IMG/VR virus record: IMGVR_UViG_3300030118_003186
Location: 1-40,046 of that record
Direction: 5' to 3' (one strand)
Length of the DNA: 40,046 nt
From: a virus
Shown: in pieces, positions 4,573 through 17,722 of the stretch
Position numbering within the stretch: position 1 is the stretch's first letter
Layout: each line of letters begins with the position of its first letter
Notes under the pieces: generated by a model
Told to the model about the DNA's origin: nothing
Seen by the model: only the letters and a program-made list of their open reading frames with translations
The model's database searches: none
Position numbers and translations under genes: made by a program

Positions 4573-5178
4573 ATGAGTTATCAACATTTTCATCACTGGG
4601 GCGTTCGTACTAAAGAAAATATAGAAAGACTAATAGATGGTACAGATTATGGATCTAGCTATACTAATGCTAATCAATTATTAGAAGATGGTCAAAGCGT
4701 TATAGATAAAACTATCGAAGGTTTTATGAATTGGTCTAATAATACTAGTACAGATGGTAGTGGTAATTATTATGGCGGCTGTTTTATGGCGCCATCTTTC
4801 TCTCAATACTTTTGTGATACGACTGAATTTACAAATAAATGGTTTTATGTAGGAGGATCTAGTTCTGTTAACACAGTTAGATTAGGCGCTACAACTGCTG
4901 CTGCTGCTGAATCCATGATAGGCATATCTTATAACACTTTATTTGGTGCTGGTGATTTTGCTCAAATGAGAGTTTGTGGTATAGCTTATGTAGATGTAGA
5001 TGATTTTAGTACTCCTGAAAATGGTCATTATGTTGATGAAGGTCAAAGTGCTGGTAAAGTAGGAGACGCAGGTGGATCTGTTCAACAACAAGTATTTGCG
5101 TGGTGTACTAATAATAGTACATCTTCTGAAGGTTCAGGATCTATATATGTAAAAATAAACGCCACAGAAACATCTTAA
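4573..5178 (+). CDS. Decoration-like virion protein 3, 201 aa
   Basis: Starts MSYQHFHHWGVRTKENIERL. The N-terminal ~55 residues look helical, and the rest is Gly/Ser/Thr-rich beta. The stretch SMIGISYNTLFGAGDFAQMR followed by VCGIAYVDVDD parallels the barrel region of the two preceding proteins. It is the last gene of the fibre cluster; two hairpins follow its stop. Possible distant paralogue of its two neighbours, judged by gene order, start and pattern rather than clear identity. Confidence 0.6.
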   Translation: MSYQHFHHWGVRTKENIERLIDGTDYGSSYTNANQLLEDGQSVIDKTIEGFMNWSNNTSTDGSGNYYGGCFMAPSFSQYFCDTTEFTNKWFYVGGSSSVNTVRLGATTAAAAESMIGISYNTLFGAGDFAQMRVCGIAYVDVDDFSTPENGHYVDEGQSAGKVGDAGGSVQQQVFAWCTNNSTSSEGSGSIYVKINATETS

Positions 5179-5562: not shown

Positions 5563-7107
5563 ATGCAAGAAGTTAAGCTAGTTAAAGATTTGGCCTTTGG
5601 TGACAATGCTAGAGGCCAAATACTAGCTGGTGTAAGTAAACTAACTAACGCGGTTAGTTCTACATTAGGAGCCAGCGGTAAATGTGTAATACTGGAAGAT
5701 GAAAATGGCAAACCAGTTATAACTAAAGATGGAGTTACAGTTGCTAACTCTGTTACACTATTAAAACCATTAGAAAATATTGGAGCCACACTTATTAAAG
5801 AAGCTGCTCAAAGAACAGTTAAAGACGCAGGCGATGGTACTACAACTGCTACTATATTAGCACATGCTATATTAGAAGAATATATCAAGCATGATCAATT
5901 AGATGATTTAAGAAGTATAAAAAATGGAATTAACACTGCTGTGGATAATGTTGTTAAGTATCTTCAAAAGAAAAGAAAAAAGGTTAGTGGTAAAAAGATT
6001 GATCAGGTTGCAACTATATCAGCTAACAATGATAAAGATATAGGTACAATAATAGGAGAAGCGTTTAAACTTGTAGATGAAACTGGCATAGTTTTAATGG
6101 AAACTAACGAGCAACCAGAAACAACAGTTGAACTAATAGAAGGCGTGCAGTATAATAGATCGTTAAAAAATAAACATTTTATAACTAATAAAGAAAAAGG
6201 TACATCAGAGCTTGATAATCCTTTAGTTTTAATTGTTGAGTCTAAAATAGAAAACATAAGAAAAATACAAAATGTATTAGAGCATGTTATAAAAAATAAC
6301 AAAAGTTTATTAATAATAGCAGATGTTGACCAGCAAGTAGTAAATGCATTAGCAATGAATAAACTTAAAGGCAATATAAAAGTCAACATCATAGATGCAC
6401 CTGTGTTTGGGTTAGGTAGAAAAGAAGTACTTAGCGATTTATGTGATGTAACAGGTGCAACTCTAATTAACGAAGATCTAGGAGATGATATAGATTTAAT
6501 TAGCGAAGAACACTTAGGTTCATGTGTTAAGTCTATAACAGGTAATGATCTTACCGTATTACAAGTTGACTTAAAAGAAAATACTAAAGTAAAAGAAACT
6601 ATAGATATATTAGAAAAACAAATTAAAGATGTTAACAACTCTAATATAAAAACTAGACTTGAAAAAAGACTAGGTAACTTAAAAGCTAAAATGGCTATAG
6701 TTCGCGTAGGCGCTAACTCAGAGGTTGAATTAAAAGAAAAGCAAGATAGAGTTGAAGATGCCATTTGTGCTACTAAAGCCGCTATAAAACAAGGAATAGT
6801 ATCAGGAGGTGGTATAGCATTATATAACGCTTCTCAAAACTTGCAACCTAAAAATATAGGTGAAGAAGTTTTGTACTGTGCTATTAAAAGACCATATGAG
6901 GTTATACTTGCTAACGCTGGTATAGATAGTGAAGCACCTGAAGGAGAAGGCATAGGAATAGATGTGGTTACAGGAAAAACGGTAGATATGGCAAAAGCCG
7001 GAATAATAGATCCTTTGCTAGTAACTAAAAGTGCACTTGTAAATGCGGCTTCTGTAGCTACTACTATTATGAGTACTGATTGTGTCATTAATAATATAAG
7101 GGCATGA
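5563..7107 (+). CDS. groEL: GroEL-like chaperonin (Cpn60)
   Basis: A 514-aa chaperonin with the full equatorial-intermediate-apical-intermediate-equatorial layout. ATP-site motifs are present: TKDG (54-57, matching E. coli D52), GDGTTTAT (90-97, D87), the catalytic Asp in RVEDA (D399, matching D398), SGGG (414-417) and GIIDP (480-484, matching D495). E. coli P33 is replaced by Ala in TLGAS. The apical domain (~185-375) keeps the helix pair NIRKIQNVLEHV and SLLIIADVDQQVVNAL used for substrate and GroES binding. It ends INNIRA with no GGM tail, a shorter C-terminus than E. coli's 548-aa protein. The start follows an A/T-only TTTAAT repeat leader. It overlaps groES by ATGA. Probably folds phage virion proteins, alone or with host subunits. 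Confidence 0.95.
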   Translation: MQEVKLVKDLAFGDNARGQILAGVSKLTNAVSSTLGASGKCVILEDENGKPVITKDGVTVANSVTLLKPLENIGATLIKEAAQRTVKDAGDGTTTATILAHAILEEYIKHDQLDDLRSIKNGINTAVDNVVKYLQKKRKKVSGKKIDQVATISANNDKDIGTIIGEAFKLVDETGIVLMETNEQPETTVELIEGVQYNRSLKNKHFITNKEKGTSELDNPLVLIVESKIENIRKIQNVLEHVIKNNKSLLIIADVDQQVVNALAMNKLKGNIKVNIIDAPVFGLGRKEVLSDLCDVTGATLINEDLGDDIDLISEEHLGSCVKSITGNDLTVLQVDLKENTKVKETIDILEKQIKDVNNSNIKTRLEKRLGNLKAKMAIVRVGANSEVELKEKQDRVEDAICATKAAIKQGIVSGGGIALYNASQNLQPKNIGEEVLYCAIKRPYEVILANAGIDSEAPEGEGIGIDVVTGKTVDMAKAGIIDPLLVTKSALVNAASVATTIMSTDCVINNIRA

Positions 7108-7364
7108 AAGCAATTGGTAAGTATATAGTTATAGATCCTATTAAAGAAACATCGACTACAACAAAAGGTGGATTAATACTAGGTGAAAAGCAAAGAGAAG
7201 ATATTAGATACAGACGTGCTAGCATTGTAAGTGTTGGCACAGATGTAAATAAACTAAAAGCTGGTAATGAAATATATTATGATAAATCAGCAGGTTTTAA
7301 TATAGAAATAAAAAATAACAATTATAAAGTTATAAAAGAGTTTGATGTAGTAGTTGTATTATGA
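7104..7364 (+). CDS. groES: GroES-like co-chaperonin
   Basis: An 86-aa protein, slightly shorter than the usual 95-97. The N-terminus reads IGKYIVIDPIKETSTTTKGG; the mobile loop carries GGLIL, like the GGIVL contact motif of bacterial GroES; then RRASIVSVGTDVN, the turn LKAGNEIYYDKSAG, and a C-terminal strand YKVIKEFDVVVVL. It starts inside the groEL stop (ATGA overlap) and its own stop overlaps the next start the same way, so groEL, groES and the winged-helix gene are translationally coupled. It should cap the phage or host chaperonin ring. Confidence 0.9.
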   Translation: MKAIGKYIVIDPIKETSTTTKGGLILGEKQREDIRYRRASIVSVGTDVNKLKAGNEIYYDKSAGFNIEIKNNNYKVIKEFDVVVVL

Positions 7365-11882: not shown

Positions 11883-12170
11883 ATGGCAATAAGAGGATTA
11901 GAAGGTAATATGCAAGCTCAGCCTAGGGTATTTGCTCATGACGCTGTATTAGTTACTAAAAGTGACACTGTTGATATACCTAATACATCTGAAAGAGGAT
12001 GTTGTTTATATATTGGAGATATATCTGCTGGAGCTGACGTTAAAGTAACTATGGAAAGTGGAAACGTAGCTACTTTTAAAGGTGTAACAGCTGGATCATT
12101 TTTACCTATATTAGTAACTAGGGTTCATTCTACTGGTACAACAGCTGCAGAGATATTAGCGTTATATTAA
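11883..12170 (+). CDS. Small beta-rich virion protein (spike-base or decoration-like)
   Basis: A 95-aa protein with a compact beta pattern: DTVDIPNTSERGCCLYIGDI, then ADVKVTMESGNVATFKGVTA and GSFLPILVTRVHSTGTTAAE, ending ILALY. Small proteins with this closing pattern (hhhFLPhxVxRVxxTGTTAxxIxALY) are common in marine tailed phages and gene-transfer agents, where one type forms a head-spike base; that comparison is from memory. It directly precedes the adhesin cassettes, which fits a docking site for a surface protein. Confidence 0.65.
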   Translation: MAIRGLEGNMQAQPRVFAHDAVLVTKSDTVDIPNTSERGCCLYIGDISAGADVKVTMESGNVATFKGVTAGSFLPILVTRVHSTGTTAAEILALY

Positions 12171-12173
12171 AAT

Positions 12174-14561
12174 ATGTTTATGGGACTGGGCATGCCTGTG
12201 CCCGATATAGCCAATTTACCCGGACCTTCGAGACCAGGTTACGGAGCTAAAGATAAAAGATTTATTACTAGTTGGAATATAGATAGTGATTTTGTAAATC
12301 AAACATTTACGTTTTGGGTATCAACACAAAGTACTGGTAATAATACGACTTACTATGATTATGAGATAGACTGGGGTGATGGTAGTGCTAAGGAAACTTT
12401 TACCAACAATACTAGACCTACTCATGTTTACACTTCAATAGGTGTTTATGATATAAAAATTGAAGGTATATTTCCAGGTATGTCATTAGGCTATAGATCT
12501 GGAAATCAAGATCGAGATAGACCTGAAGCTATAAAATGTGTAGAAATAAAAAACTGGGGAGATGTTCAATTTTCTAGTTTTTATTATGGGTTTCGTGGAG
12601 CAAAAGATATGGTTATAACAGCTAAAGATGAACCTACTTTTAGAGCAGCTGGAGTAAGTGGTCAATTGAGAAGTTTGTTTTCAAATTGTAAACAAATAAA
12701 AGAATTTGATTTTACAGCTTGGAAACCAATGCTTGAAGTAGGTAATGGAGGATCAAAAACAAGAATGTGTGAACAAATGTATAAGTTAGAAAAACTAACT
12801 ATTCCTCCTGTTACATGGTTTAATTACACTAATGGTGTATCAGACGACAACATCTTTGGTGGTTTAGGTAAACAAGCAGGTATAGAAATTTTAAACGCTG
12901 GAAGCGGATTGAGCACTGGTAATCAAGTAACAACTGATGGAGGTAACTTTACTATTAATGTAGGAAGTGTAGATGGATCAGGCGCTGCAGTAGATGGAAC
13001 AATAACTATAATAAACGTAGATAATAGCTGGACAAAAGACGCCGTGTTTAATTTTTCTGGAGGTCTTCAAATAAAATTAACAACTGAAAAACCTGGTTGT
13101 AATTTAATAGCGAAAGACATAACATTTACTGATTATGTTAGTTGGAGATACATACTGTATGATGCTGTAGTAAACGAAGTAGATTTTTCTAATTGGACAT
13201 TTGGTAGAATAGGAAGTATGATTCAGTGGTACTTTCTCAATAACGCTGGTTATGATTCTATAATAAATATGGATAATTGGTCTACTACTGGAGATGGTGT
13301 AACAACTATGAAGTCAATGATGACTGGTAATAGGTATAGTTACATGAATCTAAGAGGTCCTAAAATACTTAAAACTACAAATTGGGATTCTAGTGTTACT
13401 AATAATTTAACTAACTTTAGTAATTTAGGAAATACATCTAGCGGTAGATATTCTAGACTTAGAGAGTGGTGGGGTCTAAATAATATAAAATTAGGAAAAG
13501 TTACTACTTTTGAAAGAATGTTTGAGTATTTGCAGTTTCTTATTTTTGCAGATGAAAATGGAAGAAACTTTTCAAGCACGTGTATGGATAATAGAGTTAC
13601 TACTCCTACCTCACTAAACTGTACTAGATTTTTCTTTCAAACGGGATGGGTTAATCTTGATCAATACCCTGAAGCTAAGCCAGCAAATTTTGATGGTTGG
13701 AACTTTAACGCGGGTAGTCCTGTTAGTTTTAATCAAGCGTTTTATGGATCCGGTCTTCCTGGAGATGACACAACAGCGCCTGGTGGTATAACTTGGGATT
13801 TATCAAGTGCTGATTTAAGTAATGTAAGTTTCTTAGGAAGTGCTTTTAGAAGAGTTAATTATTTTCCAACTACTGGAGAAAATAGACCAAGCGCAAGACA
13901 AACTATAAAAATTGATAGCTTAAGTTCAATCTGTACTAGCATGTACTACATGGGACAACAAAGTACAATAACTGACTTTGATCTTATAGGAAGTGATATA
14001 TCTGGAGTTACTAATATGGAAAGAATATTTGGTGAAGAAGTTTCTGCCGCTACTAATGAGTTTGGTTTTAAATTTGATAATACTGTATTATTGAATAATG
14101 TTACTAATATGGTTAATTTTGTAGGTGGTGGTGGTAGATCTTTGTTTACAGAAGATTATAATAATATATTAAGAGCATTAGGTCAAACTACTGAACAAAA
14201 TAGAGTTGCTTATTTTTATAATAGTAAATTTGATGGAGGTTTAATATTTCCTTCAGGAAGAACTCCAGAGATAATGACTAATACAGGTACAGCAAATAAA
14301 GTAATAGACACAAATAAAGATTTTGTAGCGTTAGGAGTGCAAATAGGAGATATTGTAGAAACTGGTCCATCAGGAAATATTTATCAAGTAGCAGCAATTA
14401 CAAATGTAGCTACAACAGAATTAACTTTAGATGCTAATATAGTATCTGCTGCTTTTAACGATTATAATATACAAACTAGTCAAACTGCAAAAGATCGTTT
14501 CCACATATTAGATAACCCACAAAACTGGACACTAATTGATAGTGGTCCTGTAACAACTTAA
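12174..14561 (+). CDS. PKD/BspA-like adhesin 1, 795 aa
   Basis: The N-terminus MFMGLGMPVPDIANLPGPSR is shared with adhesin 2 and is probably the virion-docking tag. A PKD-type domain spans ~35-100 with YEIDWGDG (63-70) and HVYTSIGVYDIKI. Residues ~110-700 are irregular repeats in the style of BspA/DUF285 surface proteins (FDFTAWKPM, VDFSNWTFG, TNMERIF). The end, TAKDRFHILDNPQNWTLIDS then GPVTT, matches the BspA-type cap of adhesin 2, but here a ~68-residue beta insert (701-768, with QIGDIVETG and ELTLDANI) interrupts it. No enzyme motif. Likely a receptor-binding protein, possibly binding glycans or surface proteins of a Bacteroidota cell. A small acidic gene follows. Confidence 0.75.
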   Translation: MFMGLGMPVPDIANLPGPSRPGYGAKDKRFITSWNIDSDFVNQTFTFWVSTQSTGNNTTYYDYEIDWGDGSAKETFTNNTRPTHVYTSIGVYDIKIEGIFPGMSLGYRSGNQDRDRPEAIKCVEIKNWGDVQFSSFYYGFRGAKDMVITAKDEPTFRAAGVSGQLRSLFSNCKQIKEFDFTAWKPMLEVGNGGSKTRMCEQMYKLEKLTIPPVTWFNYTNGVSDDNIFGGLGKQAGIEILNAGSGLSTGNQVTTDGGNFTINVGSVDGSGAAVDGTITIINVDNSWTKDAVFNFSGGLQIKLTTEKPGCNLIAKDITFTDYVSWRYILYDAVVNEVDFSNWTFGRIGSMIQWYFLNNAGYDSIINMDNWSTTGDGVTTMKSMMTGNRYSYMNLRGPKILKTTNWDSSVTNNLTNFSNLGNTSSGRYSRLREWWGLNNIKLGKVTTFERMFEYLQFLIFADENGRNFSSTCMDNRVTTPTSLNCTRFFFQTGWVNLDQYPEAKPANFDGWNFNAGSPVSFNQAFYGSGLPGDDTTAPGGITWDLSSADLSNVSFLGSAFRRVNYFPTTGENRPSARQTIKIDSLSSICTSMYYMGQQSTITDFDLIGSDISGVTNMERIFGEEVSAATNEFGFKFDNTVLLNNVTNMVNFVGGGGRSLFTEDYNNILRALGQTTEQNRVAYFYNSKFDGGLIFPSGRTPEIMTNTGTANKVIDTNKDFVALGVQIGDIVETGPSGNIYQVAAITNVATTELTLDANIVSAAFNDYNIQTSQTAKDRFHILDNPQNWTLIDSGPVTT
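12187..12235 (+). repeat. Adhesin N-terminal DNA repeat, copy 1
   Basis: The 20 bases at 12187-12206 and the 17 bases at 12219-12235 are identical to those of copy 2 at 14869-14917. They encode the shared docking-tag sequence GMPVPD...NLPGPSRPG. The first block contains GGGCA...TGCCC, a 5-bp inverted repeat around TGCCTG. The high identity in otherwise diverged genes suggests recent duplication or gene conversion. Confidence 0.7.
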
Positions 14562-14564
14562 TAA

Positions 14565-14843
14565 ATGGCACACGTAAAAGGTATATTAGCTGACGAAAAT
14601 AATCATTGGGTTTTTTTACACAATGACAATGTAATATGTTTTGGTAACTTGCAAATAGGTAATAATTTATTTTGTTCAGAAGATAAAACATTATTACATT
14701 ATAGTTCAGAAGATGAACTTGAAGACTCTGTAAACAATTTCACTGGTGAAACAAATTATTACAAAGAACAAGCTCAAGATCCATATAGTGAAGTATATAT
14801 AGGTGAAAGTGTAAAGTACCCTGTGATTATACCTGATGAATAA
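14565..14843 (+). CDS. Small acidic partner of adhesin 1, 92 aa
   Basis: Starts MAHVKGILADENNHWVFLHN, then NDNVICFGNLQIGNNLFCSE and an acidic helix DELEDSVNNF, ending in an acidic tail. It begins 3 nt after the adhesin stop. The 73-aa gene after adhesin 2 has the same position and a similar pattern (ND-V, G-L-I, N, FC, acidic helix), so the two may be homologous. A fibre-assembly chaperone or accessory subunit is plausible but unproven. Confidence 0.6.
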   Translation: MAHVKGILADENNHWVFLHNDNVICFGNLQIGNNLFCSEDKTLLHYSSEDELEDSVNNFTGETNYYKEQAQDPYSEVYIGESVKYPVIIPDE

Positions 14844-14855
14844 GAATAATATAAT

Positions 14856-16364
14856 ATGTATATAGGAATGGGCATGCCTGTGCCCGATTTATCTAACTTG
14901 CCCGGACCTTCGAGACCTGGATACCCTAGCGGAAACCAGGGTGAAGAACACATGAAGTTTGAAGTATTAATTCCAGAAAGCGATAAAACATTAGGCTTCT
15001 CTATAAACGCAAGGACTTATACAGGAGGCCCTGGTGGTGGGAGATCATATGGTTATACTGTTGATTGGGGAGACGGCCAATCTTTTACACAACCTCCTGG
15101 TAGTAGTTATACTATAGGTTTATCTCACACGTATAATGATGCAGGTACTTATATTATAACTATTGATTGGGAAGATGCTTTTAATGGTACAAACGCGTAT
15201 TATCCTTTAGCATTTACTACTACAAGTCAGCCAAAAATTACAAATTGGATAAGTTGGGGAATACATTATAAAATAGGAAGTTATTTTAGAATGTTTGATC
15301 AGTTAGAAAATATGGTTAATACCGCAACGGACTATCCAATAATTTGGCAACAAGGCGGAGCTCTTCAAAGTCACAACTGGTCTAGAACTTTTGGCCAAGC
15401 GGAATCTTGGAATACGCCAATAAATTTATCTGATTATAATGTTAGTCAATGGACAGCTAGTGCTAGATATAGCAATACTTTTCATGATATGTATAATTTA
15501 CCTCAATTATCATTACAAAACGATACGGTAAACTGTGGAACTTCAAGTAATCCCTTTAGAGATGGTGGAATGACAGACAATGTTGGAAGAGATACTGCAA
15601 GCGGATGTAAATTTCAATTTAACAATATTAATGTTGAAGGAGCTGGTGCAAATACTTTATTTGGAAACGCGTTATTTAGATTATCTTACCTACATAAAGA
15701 AAGTTCTTTTACTAATTGGACCTATGATAATTCACTCACGACAAATGGATTTGCACAGATTGCTAATATATTTCAGGGTAGTAAAATAAAAAATTTATCA
15801 GACAATGAAAATTTAACAATTGATCTTTCAGGTTGGAAAGATAAAAATAATACAAGTTTAGCACTTTATGTTACAGGTTTTGGTTCTAGTGGCTTTGAAA
15901 AAGATGGATTAACAAATGTTACTGGAACTTTAACTATTGATTTTACTAGTCCTTACGGCATAGATTTATCTGGTCATGCGCGAAATATGTTTTATAATCT
16001 TAATGGGTCTAAATGGTCAGGATTAACTATTATAGGCGCTGGAAATTGGACTATAAATAATCTTTCTAGCGGTACACAAGGTACTAGAAACATGTTCTAC
16101 AATTGTGGCACACTTGATATTGATTTAACAAATTTTGATTTTACAGGCGTTCCTTATAAAAGCGCATTTATGACTGGTAATACAAAATTAACTACCGCAA
16201 GATATGATCAAGCTTTAATAGCCTGGGACAATAGTGGTGTTCAAAATATAGTAAATTTAAAAATGAATCTTTCACAATATACGGCTGGTGGAGCTGCGGA
16301 AACAGCTAGAAATAATTTAATAAATAATAAAGGTTGGTCAATAAATGACGGAGGACCTGTTTAA
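14856..16364 (+). CDS. PKD/BspA-like adhesin 2, 502 aa
   Basis: The N-terminus MYIGMGMPVPDLSNLPGPSR is nearly identical to adhesin 1. The PKD domain at ~38-105 has YTVDWGDG (67-74) and HTYNDAGTYIITI. A BspA/DUF285-like region follows (WNTPINLSDYNVSQW, FDFTGVP). The C-terminal cap is the standard BspA-type end: YDQALIAWDNSGVQN, LSQYTAGGAAETARNNLI and GWSINDGGPV. Shorter than adhesin 1 and without its C-terminal insert. Probably an alternative or additional receptor-binding protein; the duplication suggests two specificities on one virion or a switching pair. Confidence 0.78.
   Translation: MYIGMGMPVPDLSNLPGPSRPGYPSGNQGEEHMKFEVLIPESDKTLGFSINARTYTGGPGGGRSYGYTVDWGDGQSFTQPPGSSYTIGLSHTYNDAGTYIITIDWEDAFNGTNAYYPLAFTTTSQPKITNWISWGIHYKIGSYFRMFDQLENMVNTATDYPIIWQQGGALQSHNWSRTFGQAESWNTPINLSDYNVSQWTASARYSNTFHDMYNLPQLSLQNDTVNCGTSSNPFRDGGMTDNVGRDTASGCKFQFNNINVEGAGANTLFGNALFRLSYLHKESSFTNWTYDNSLTTNGFAQIANIFQGSKIKNLSDNENLTIDLSGWKDKNNTSLALYVTGFGSSGFEKDGLTNVTGTLTIDFTSPYGIDLSGHARNMFYNLNGSKWSGLTIIGAGNWTINNLSSGTQGTRNMFYNCGTLDIDLTNFDFTGVPYKSAFMTGNTKLTTARYDQALIAWDNSGVQNIVNLKMNLSQYTAGGAAETARNNLINNKGWSINDGGPV
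14869..14917 (+). repeat. Adhesin N-terminal DNA repeat, copy 2
   Basis: Counterpart of copy 1: blocks at 14869-14888 (20 bases) and 14901-14917 (17 bases) are identical to it. The bases are far more GC-rich than the surrounding adhesin coding DNA. Confidence 0.7.
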
Positions 16365-16378
16365 TAAAATATAATATA

Positions 16379-16600
16379 ATGCAATGTTTGGAGTTTCCAA
16401 GTGAAATAACTTATATAATAACATTTAACAATGATGAAGTTAATGGTACTTTGTATATAGATACAAATCAAGAGTTTTGTATGCCTGACTCATGGAGTAG
16501 TGAAATATTTACTAATGAAGCTGAATATATAGAAAGATGTAGCGATTTAAATATAGAGCCTAATTTACCAGAACAACCTGAAATAATGGAAGAAGAGTAA
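16379..16600 (+). CDS. Small acidic partner of adhesin 2, 73 aa
   Basis: Reads EITYIITFNNDEVNGTLYID near the N-terminus, then NQEFCMPDSWSSEIF and an acidic helix (NEAEYIERCSDL), ending EQPEIMEEE. The start follows ATATAATATA. It repeats the position of the 92-aa gene after adhesin 1 and aligns with it by pattern, so the adhesin-plus-partner unit looks duplicated. Function unknown; accessory or chaperone by analogy. Confidence 0.6.
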   Translation: MQCLEFPSEITYIITFNNDEVNGTLYIDTNQEFCMPDSWSSEIFTNEAEYIERCSDLNIEPNLPEQPEIMEEE

Positions 16601-16902: not shown

Positions 16903-17129
16903 TGTCTAATGTTATAAGAAAAATTAGTATTGGATCTGACTATAAAAATGATGCTATGCATTATTCTGTTGGTCAAGAAGTTTACGGTGGTCATACCATA
17001 TGTGATATAATTGGTAACAAGATTGATGGTGAGTATTTGATTTATATAAAGAAAAATAACGAAGTATTACCTTGGAAAAAATTTAATCGCAATATGGCAA
17101 TAGCAGTTGAATATGATCTTCAATATTAA
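16902..17129 (+). CDS. Small conserved-looking protein of 75 aa, unknown
   Basis: Reads MSNVIRKISIGSDYKNDAMH, then YSVGQEVYGGHTICDIIG and YLIYIKKNNEVLPWKKFNRN, ending AVEYDLQY: a small beta-rich fold with no catalytic residues. It lies between the coiled-coil gene and the double-GroES-like gene with 1-nt overlaps on both sides. Similar small proteins seem frequent in marine phages, from memory. Unknown. Confidence 0.65.
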   Translation: MSNVIRKISIGSDYKNDAMHYSVGQEVYGGHTICDIIGNKIDGEYLIYIKKNNEVLPWKKFNRNMAIAVEYDLQY

Positions 17130-17722
17130 TGAGAAGTTTATATGAATTTATTGTTAAACCTAAAACAAATAGGTATAACAATACTGTAGATGTAGATGGT
17201 AAAGAACTTATAGTTAATTCAAATATTGATAACTATGAATTTGTTAGTAAAGAAGCTGTGGTTGTGCAAACACCTGCAGCTTTTAATACTGATATAAAAC
17301 CTGGAGATATTGTACACGTTCATCACAATTTATTTAGAAGATGGTATAATATGAAAGGTGAAGAAAAAAATTCATCTAAATATTTTAAAGATGATCTTTA
17401 TTTTTGTACACTAGATCAAATATATATGTACAATAATAAATGTCATTTAAACTATTGCTTTGTATCTCCTATTAAACAAGTAGACGGTTTTAACGCATCT
17501 AAAGAAAGAGAACATTTTGGTATATTAAAATATAGCAATAAGTCCTTAGAACGCGTAGGATTACATCCTGGAAAGCTTGTAGTTTTTACACCTAACTCAG
17601 AGTTTGAGTTTATTATAAATGGTGAAAGACTTTATTGTATGAAATCAAATGATATAGCAGTTACTCATGAATACGAAGGAAACGAGGAAGAATATAATCC
17701 GAGCTGGGCGAAAAGCAGTTGA
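17129..17722 (+). CDS. Putative tandem (double) GroES-like co-chaperonin domain protein
   Basis: 197 aa that read as two chaperonin-10-like halves. Half 1 (~5-100): LYEFIVKP, DGKELIVN, FVSKEAVVVQTP, then DIKPGDIVHVHHN, the GroES turn (compare E. coli VKVGDIVIFND). Half 2 (~108-185): NYCFVSPIKQ, GILKYSN, LHPGKLVVFTPNSEFEFIIN, GERLYCMKSNDIAV, closely following the GroES end (VGDIVIF, then IDNEEVLIMSESDILAI). The C-terminus YEGNEEEYNPSWAKSS is an extra tail. No clear GGIVL mobile loop is seen, so it may be an altered cap or a GroES-fold protein with another job. It lies next to the packaging genes, 10 kb from groEL. The GroES reading is inference by eye. Confidence 0.6.
   Translation: MRSLYEFIVKPKTNRYNNTVDVDGKELIVNSNIDNYEFVSKEAVVVQTPAAFNTDIKPGDIVHVHHNLFRRWYNMKGEEKNSSKYFKDDLYFCTLDQIYMYNNKCHLNYCFVSPIKQVDGFNASKEREHFGILKYSNKSLERVGLHPGKLVVFTPNSEFEFIINGERLYCMKSNDIAVTHEYEGNEEEYNPSWAKSS

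Follow-up and report, generated by a model that had tools for sequence, protein, structure and literature searches.

Organisation of the locus

The window analysed here, a 40,046-base virus record, belongs to a marine bacterial virus. Its terminase and portal match families common to Flavobacterium elemo and Cellulophaga podoviruses, and its TerL is 45% identical to that of Flavobacterium phage elemo. Two large adhesin genes, each followed by a gene for a small protein, lie directly behind a short gene related to the bases of head spikes (Table 1). An earlier note on this DNA had described two cassettes with less than 15 nt between adhesin and small gene, a layout which was confirmed with exact coordinates. 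The small proteins are acidic, as it stated, with a pI of 4.3 (small 1) and 4.05 (small 2).

Table 1. Features of the adhesin block, in window coordinates
Feature	Coordinates	Strand	Description
Head-spike base protein homologue	11883..12170	+	95 aa; presumed capsid-vertex socket; directly upstream of adhesin 1
Adhesin 1	12174..14561	+	795 aa; tag, PKD and BspA-like repeats; probable head fibre
Docking tag (probable) of adhesin 1	12174..12242	+	MFMGLGMPVPDIANLPGPSRPGY; alternating hydrophobic/Gly-Pro
Small acidic partner 1 (small 1)	14565..14843	+	92 aa; family A; 3 nt behind adhesin 1
Adhesin 2	14856..16364	+	502 aa; tag, PKD, BspA-like repeats and C-terminal cap; probable head fibre
Docking tag (probable) of adhesin 2	14856..14924	+	MYIGMGMPVPDLSNLPGPSRPGY; 59/69 nt identical to tag 1
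Small acidic partner 2 (small 2)	16379..16600	+	73 aa; family B; 14 nt behind adhesin 2

The two adhesins do share the N-terminal tag attributed to them: about 220 N-terminal residues align, including the tag and the PKD region (BLASTP E 2e-15). The PKD domain is present in both (E 4e-4 and 1e-3), although both matches fall under the Pfam curated cut-off. The BspA-type C-terminal cap, which had been assigned to both proteins, is clear in adhesin 2 but the resemblance of adhesin 1 to adhesin 2 in this part is weak (E 0.24). A DUF285/LRR_5 search gave a weak match for adhesin 2 (E 0.35) and none for adhesin 1. DUF285 matches ranging from E 1e-13 to 1e-64 occur in nine of ten relatives that precede a partner of the same superfamily; L087, the remaining one, exhibits PKD only. 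Adhesin 1 is 63% identical to the fibre of L005, and the body of adhesin 2 is 62% identical to a protein of L001 whose N-terminal anchor differs. No match to adhesin 1 was found in the bacterial genomes scanned with it.

The window also encodes a GroEL (5563-7107; Pfam Cpn60 E 2e-50, PHROG E 1e-130) and a GroES (7104-7364; Cpn10 E 7e-13) whose genes overlap, and a similar pair is found in elemo phages. A second GroES-like gene lies just ahead of the terminase (17129-17722); the first half of its 197 aa product matches a GroES PHROG (E 6.5e-21). General folding help is thus at hand in this phage, so that the job of the small partners would be more specific.

The base gene and the N-terminal tags

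The best PDB match of the base gene by phmmer is 8cjz_h, the 'Spike Base Protein' of Carin-1 (E 1.8e-4). A wider profile reaches the RcGTA base at E 9e-7. Its E value of 1e-27 to 8cjz was discounted as independent evidence because Carin-1 itself is included in it, and only the profile built without Carin-1 counts as independent. With the latter, the best two of 177,635 PDB sequences are 8cjz_h (E 5e-4) and RcGTA Rcc01079, 6tb9 (E 7e-3).

The tags of the window, M-F-M-G-L-G-M-P-V-P and M-Y-I-G-M-G-M-P-V-P, exhibit the alternation of hydrophobic residues with Gly of the RcGTA fibre, whose N-terminal peptide is IALGLGLGL and for which the peptide mechanism is established (PMC7296036), although M/L/V replace its regular I/L series, which is a point against reading them as docking peptides. 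Other proteins adjoining a base start in a similar way (MLGLGLGI in Carin-1 gp39, MIGLGLDLSL in P8625_24). An alternating hydrophobic/Gly start was observed in 39 of 48 unique proteins directly behind the base versus 4 of 450 other ORFs of the same viral contigs; these sequences are related and the counts are not independent draws, and three of the four positive control ORFs are tagged proteins located elsewhere in the contigs. The pattern suggests that the tag probably serves as a docking peptide. Together with the base homology, it indicates that adhesins 1 and 2 are most likely not tail fibres but head fibres of the capsid, alternatives to each other that use a single socket.

It seems unlikely that the adhesins are instead tail fibres of the usual kind, assisted by a Tfa/gp38-like chaperone, and that the base-like gene beside them is incidental. 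The base family is named 'tail fiber protein' in PHROG 12296, which the window gene matches at E 6e-12, modules of a fibre and its chaperone are common to unrelated marine phages (PMC10579305), and the only isolate-phage tblastn matches of one partner family touch Burkholderia tail fibre assembly genes (see below). However, the base homology points to head-spike bases, the docking peptide co-occurs with the base, and the small proteins have no chaperone match in Pfam or PHROG.

The small partners belong to one new family

According to the earlier note, the two small proteins align by pattern. Compared with each other they give no signal (pairwise BLASTP, E 22), and hhalign of the two narrow families gives E 0.24. 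Related phages were gathered and all their ORFs were searched iteratively for partner members. The small 2 family comprises 27 members among those listed, and the small 1 family (A) gained two bridging members, L117 and L045, whose motifs W-F-I/Y, FGN, GQ(P/A) and EEEL match the motifs TWFI, HYG, SGQP and NEadW of family C. With these bridging members, family A aligns with family C at E 8.6e-6 (hhalign), while the small 2 family aligns with family C at E 3.7e-9 and with families C, D and E combined at E 2.7e-10. The real score was reached by none of 200 column shuffles of family A against C, by none of 200 against the combined family and, for small 2, by none of 150 against C. Small 1 and small 2 are homologous, through intermediates only: the profile comparison is significant solely by way of family C. 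The proposed likeness therefore holds as homology via bridging families, but it is undetectable between the pair itself and the 'FC' motif cited for it is not conserved in the family.

Small 1 is 47% identical to the partner found in the same position in L005, and small 2 is 72% identical to the partner located 11 nt behind the homologous adhesin in L001. The AlphaFold models of both proteins, built from input alignments with no members in common, present the same order of five strands followed by a helix: strands 2-4, 11-17, 20-27, 33-35 and 39-44 and helix 47-56 in small 2 (pLDDT 82); strands 4-8, 14-19, 24-29, 34-38 and 42-46 and helix 49-60 in small 1, at low confidence (pLDDT 64). In a viral fold library, the best-50 lists of the two models overlap in at least nine entries, some of which rank in the top ten for both and none of which has a named function. 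This overlap was taken as support for a single predicted fold.

Neither small protein matches a Pfam or PHROG family, known tail fibre assembly proteins included. A PDB fold search with small 2 gave no fold match (best E 0.77), and nothing useful came from tblastn searches of isolate phages with small 1, small 2 or family E. With family C, the same search gave three matches in all, each lying within a Burkholderia tail fibre assembly gene or overlapping its start; a relationship was rejected, these matches being not significant (E 2-4) and the proteins aligning unconvincingly. Profile comparisons did not support homology of the F partners, found with LamG adhesins, to the A-E partners. The partner family is a new one, without database entry and linked to adhesin type.

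A very large adhesin, or a set of adhesins, is followed by three consecutive and differing paralogues (C, D and E) in L020 (15060-15714), L021 (5879-6519) and L026 (19135-19799).

Partner type follows adhesin type

A survey of other phages for linkage between adhesin and partner, as the note had advised, found it to be strong; in one case the pair has been transferred to a phage whose structural module differs. The partner families lie directly behind large fibre proteins, mostly at -4 to +15 nt, or are chained. Among 48 distinct complete slots, counted without hand-scoring of adhesin type, an A-E partner is present in 9 of 11 BspA slots versus 4 of 37 others (Fisher p 1.9e-5), and an F partner in 15 of 20 LamG slots versus 0 of 28 others (Fisher p 1.4e-8). 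The four non-BspA slots with an A-E partner include that of the window; they hold PKD/BspA-like proteins under the detection threshold. No recognised partner is seen in five of the LamG slots or in the BspA slot of L075, and L085 has a BspA domain yet an F partner only.

The backbone tree, derived from the neighbouring 197 aa gene, contains seven supported independent contrasts of adhesin type. The partner shifts in the same way in 6.7 of the 7 and never in the opposite one (p 0.016), on a quick tree with some long branches and with the window, L005, L087, L018, L025 and L026 scored as BspA by hand (alignment, PKD/LRR, N-terminal similarity). A two-gene unit of adhesin and partner, as initially proposed, is thus supported both by partner homology and by linkage in relatives. 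Judging from this co-inheritance and by analogy with the modules of fibre and chaperone that pass between unrelated Alteromonas phages (PMC10579305), the best explanation would be that the small partner is a fibre-specific chaperone, cap or subunit.

Accessory genes often gather in variable slots, and the small proteins have no Pfam or PHROG function assignment, as might be expected of unrelated hitchhikers such as anti-defence genes. This origin is nevertheless very improbable: partner type tracks adhesin architecture over independent switches, and adhesin and partner move jointly between phage backbones.

Origin of the two cassettes

The two cassettes had been regarded as a duplication, which the comparison of their DNA does not support. 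Their likeness is confined to the first 69 nt, the tag, with no DNA similarity beyond it. Moreover the nearest relatives of the two bodies differ: at the DNA level, adhesin 1 and small 1 are 70% identical to L005, while adhesin 2, from about nt 87, and small 2 are 72% identical to L001. The latter contig differs in its structural module and in the N-terminal anchor, and no base gene was detected in it. This distribution suggests two separately acquired modules stacked on one tag. A tandem duplication in place followed by divergence would account for the 220 N-terminal aa common to both adhesins, for the membership of both partners in one superfamily and for the 12 of 16 identical codons in the tags, above most other tag pairs. 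However, it is improbable given that DNA similarity ends at the tag and that the second cassette is nearest to an unrelated-looking phage (L001) and the first to L005.

The closest backbone relative of the window, L022 (same contig as L010/L039), illustrates the exchange. Its nucleotide identity to the window is 95.6% over the stretch that includes the holin and the base and runs into the tag, and 97.2% from 16620 on. Across both cassettes there is no identity, and L022 instead encodes LamG fibres there, together with a partner of type F. The exchange unit is therefore the set of fibre bodies and their partners, delimited by the tag on one side and by a point just after the last partner on the other. 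Such replacement of the whole fibre block between two near-identical phages amounts to a natural swap, relatives exchanging sets of fibre and partner like interchangeable cartridges.

A putative head-fibre slot

The gene order, homologies, co-inheritance and tag pattern, all directly observed, lead us to read the block 11883-16600 as a head-fibre slot with a base socket and two plug-in adhesins, each with a dedicated small partner, to which we assign a probability of about 0.6. The base protein would form a socket on the capsid vertices, pentameric by analogy with RcGTA, into which the adhesins would insert their N-terminal alternating hydrophobic/Gly peptide. The PKD and BspA-type body (LamG in relatives) would face outward and grip a polymer of the host surface. 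As both adhesins bear the same plug, they would compete for sockets and mixed fibres per virion may result. The small acidic protein would bind the adhesin encoded upstream during or after its synthesis, as an assembly chaperone or cap or as a small subunit. Contact would probably be made close to the body and not at the plug, since partner type goes with body type and the partner stays with its body when a different plug is used.

Within the same slot, the small proteins could be permanent virion subunits, such as a tip lectin or a solenoid cap, and not chaperones that act transiently, a reading to which we give somewhat less than even odds. RcGTA spike fibres are single subunits and so have no evident need of a Tfa-like trimerisation chaperone, which argues against the chaperone reading. 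The predicted fold, compact and beta-rich, and the two or three paralogous partners behind adhesins of 1,700-1,900 aa also point to subunits, although consecutive partners behind the largest adhesins fit multiple caps equally. However, no adhesion or lectin fold was found (best PDB match E 0.77) and small, acidic, poorly conserved proteins fit chaperones too. Tfa/gp38-type chaperones share with the window partners a downstream position and co-inheritance with the adhesin, but no sequence or fold similarity (Pfam, PHROG, PDB fold, tblastn).

More tentatively, marine flavophage vertices may be mosaics of at least two fibres competing via one docking peptide, each fibre being matured by a separate member of a partner family not described before, with the 69-nt plug as the exchange hinge. 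Head fibres are poorly known relative to tail fibres. The base gene and the alternating hydrophobic/Gly start would provide a sequence rule to find them in metagenomic phages, and the role of a partner for a monomeric fibre and the presence of mixed fibres on one virion now become testable.

Comparison with known systems

The RcGTA head spike (Rcc01079 base and Rcc01080 fibre) likewise has a small base gene directly followed by the fibre; as published, it consists of base and fibre only, and RcGTA fibres bind capsule (PMC7296036). The window shares with RcGTA/Carin-type spikes a jellyroll-base homologue and, beside the base gene, a probable fibre whose start alternates hydrophobic and small residues. 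In contrast to RcGTA there are two fibres per base, the fibre bodies are BspA/PKD or LamG, and small genes encode dedicated partners. Cobetia phage Carin-1 (gp40 base, PDB 8cjz; next gene gp39) resembles the window in base and fibre start, but has a single fibre, and its next small gene, gp38 (132 aa), has no detected relation to the window partners. In the module of Alteromonas phages A5/V22, as in the window, a fibre and a small downstream cognate protein, proposed to be a transient cap, move jointly between unrelated phages (PMC10579305); that fibre is on the tail, not the head, and no sequence relation to the window small proteins was detected. In Flavobacterium phage elemo (Elemovirus), the base is followed, like that of the window, by a fibre-like gene (262 aa) and a small acidic gene (66 aa), whose product is not detectably homologous to the window partners.

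Variants of the tag in other phages

In L053, L056, L057, L059, L069, L075, L078, L097, L098, L117 and L118, the gene directly behind the base encodes the tag, or a variant of it, as a separate protein of about 50-58 aa. These proteins are composed of the tag, a Pro-rich linker and short acidic repeats, and are followed in most cases by a separate fibre with a MAN(A/K)KIS-like start. They are possibly adaptors between base and fibre. Deeper in the slot lie more proteins with a tag, about 190-207 aa long (L105 8357-8980, L107, L112 7880-8473, L097 6356-6925), which start with MKIRLGIPIS, MKINLSMGIQ or MKISLGMPIPDL; more than one plug per base is found in other phages too. The tagless adhesin of L001 opens with three I-x-W/F-G repeats (EIGWGQG, DIEWGKA and TIGFGAV; 4911-5060), which probably correspond to another anchor system.
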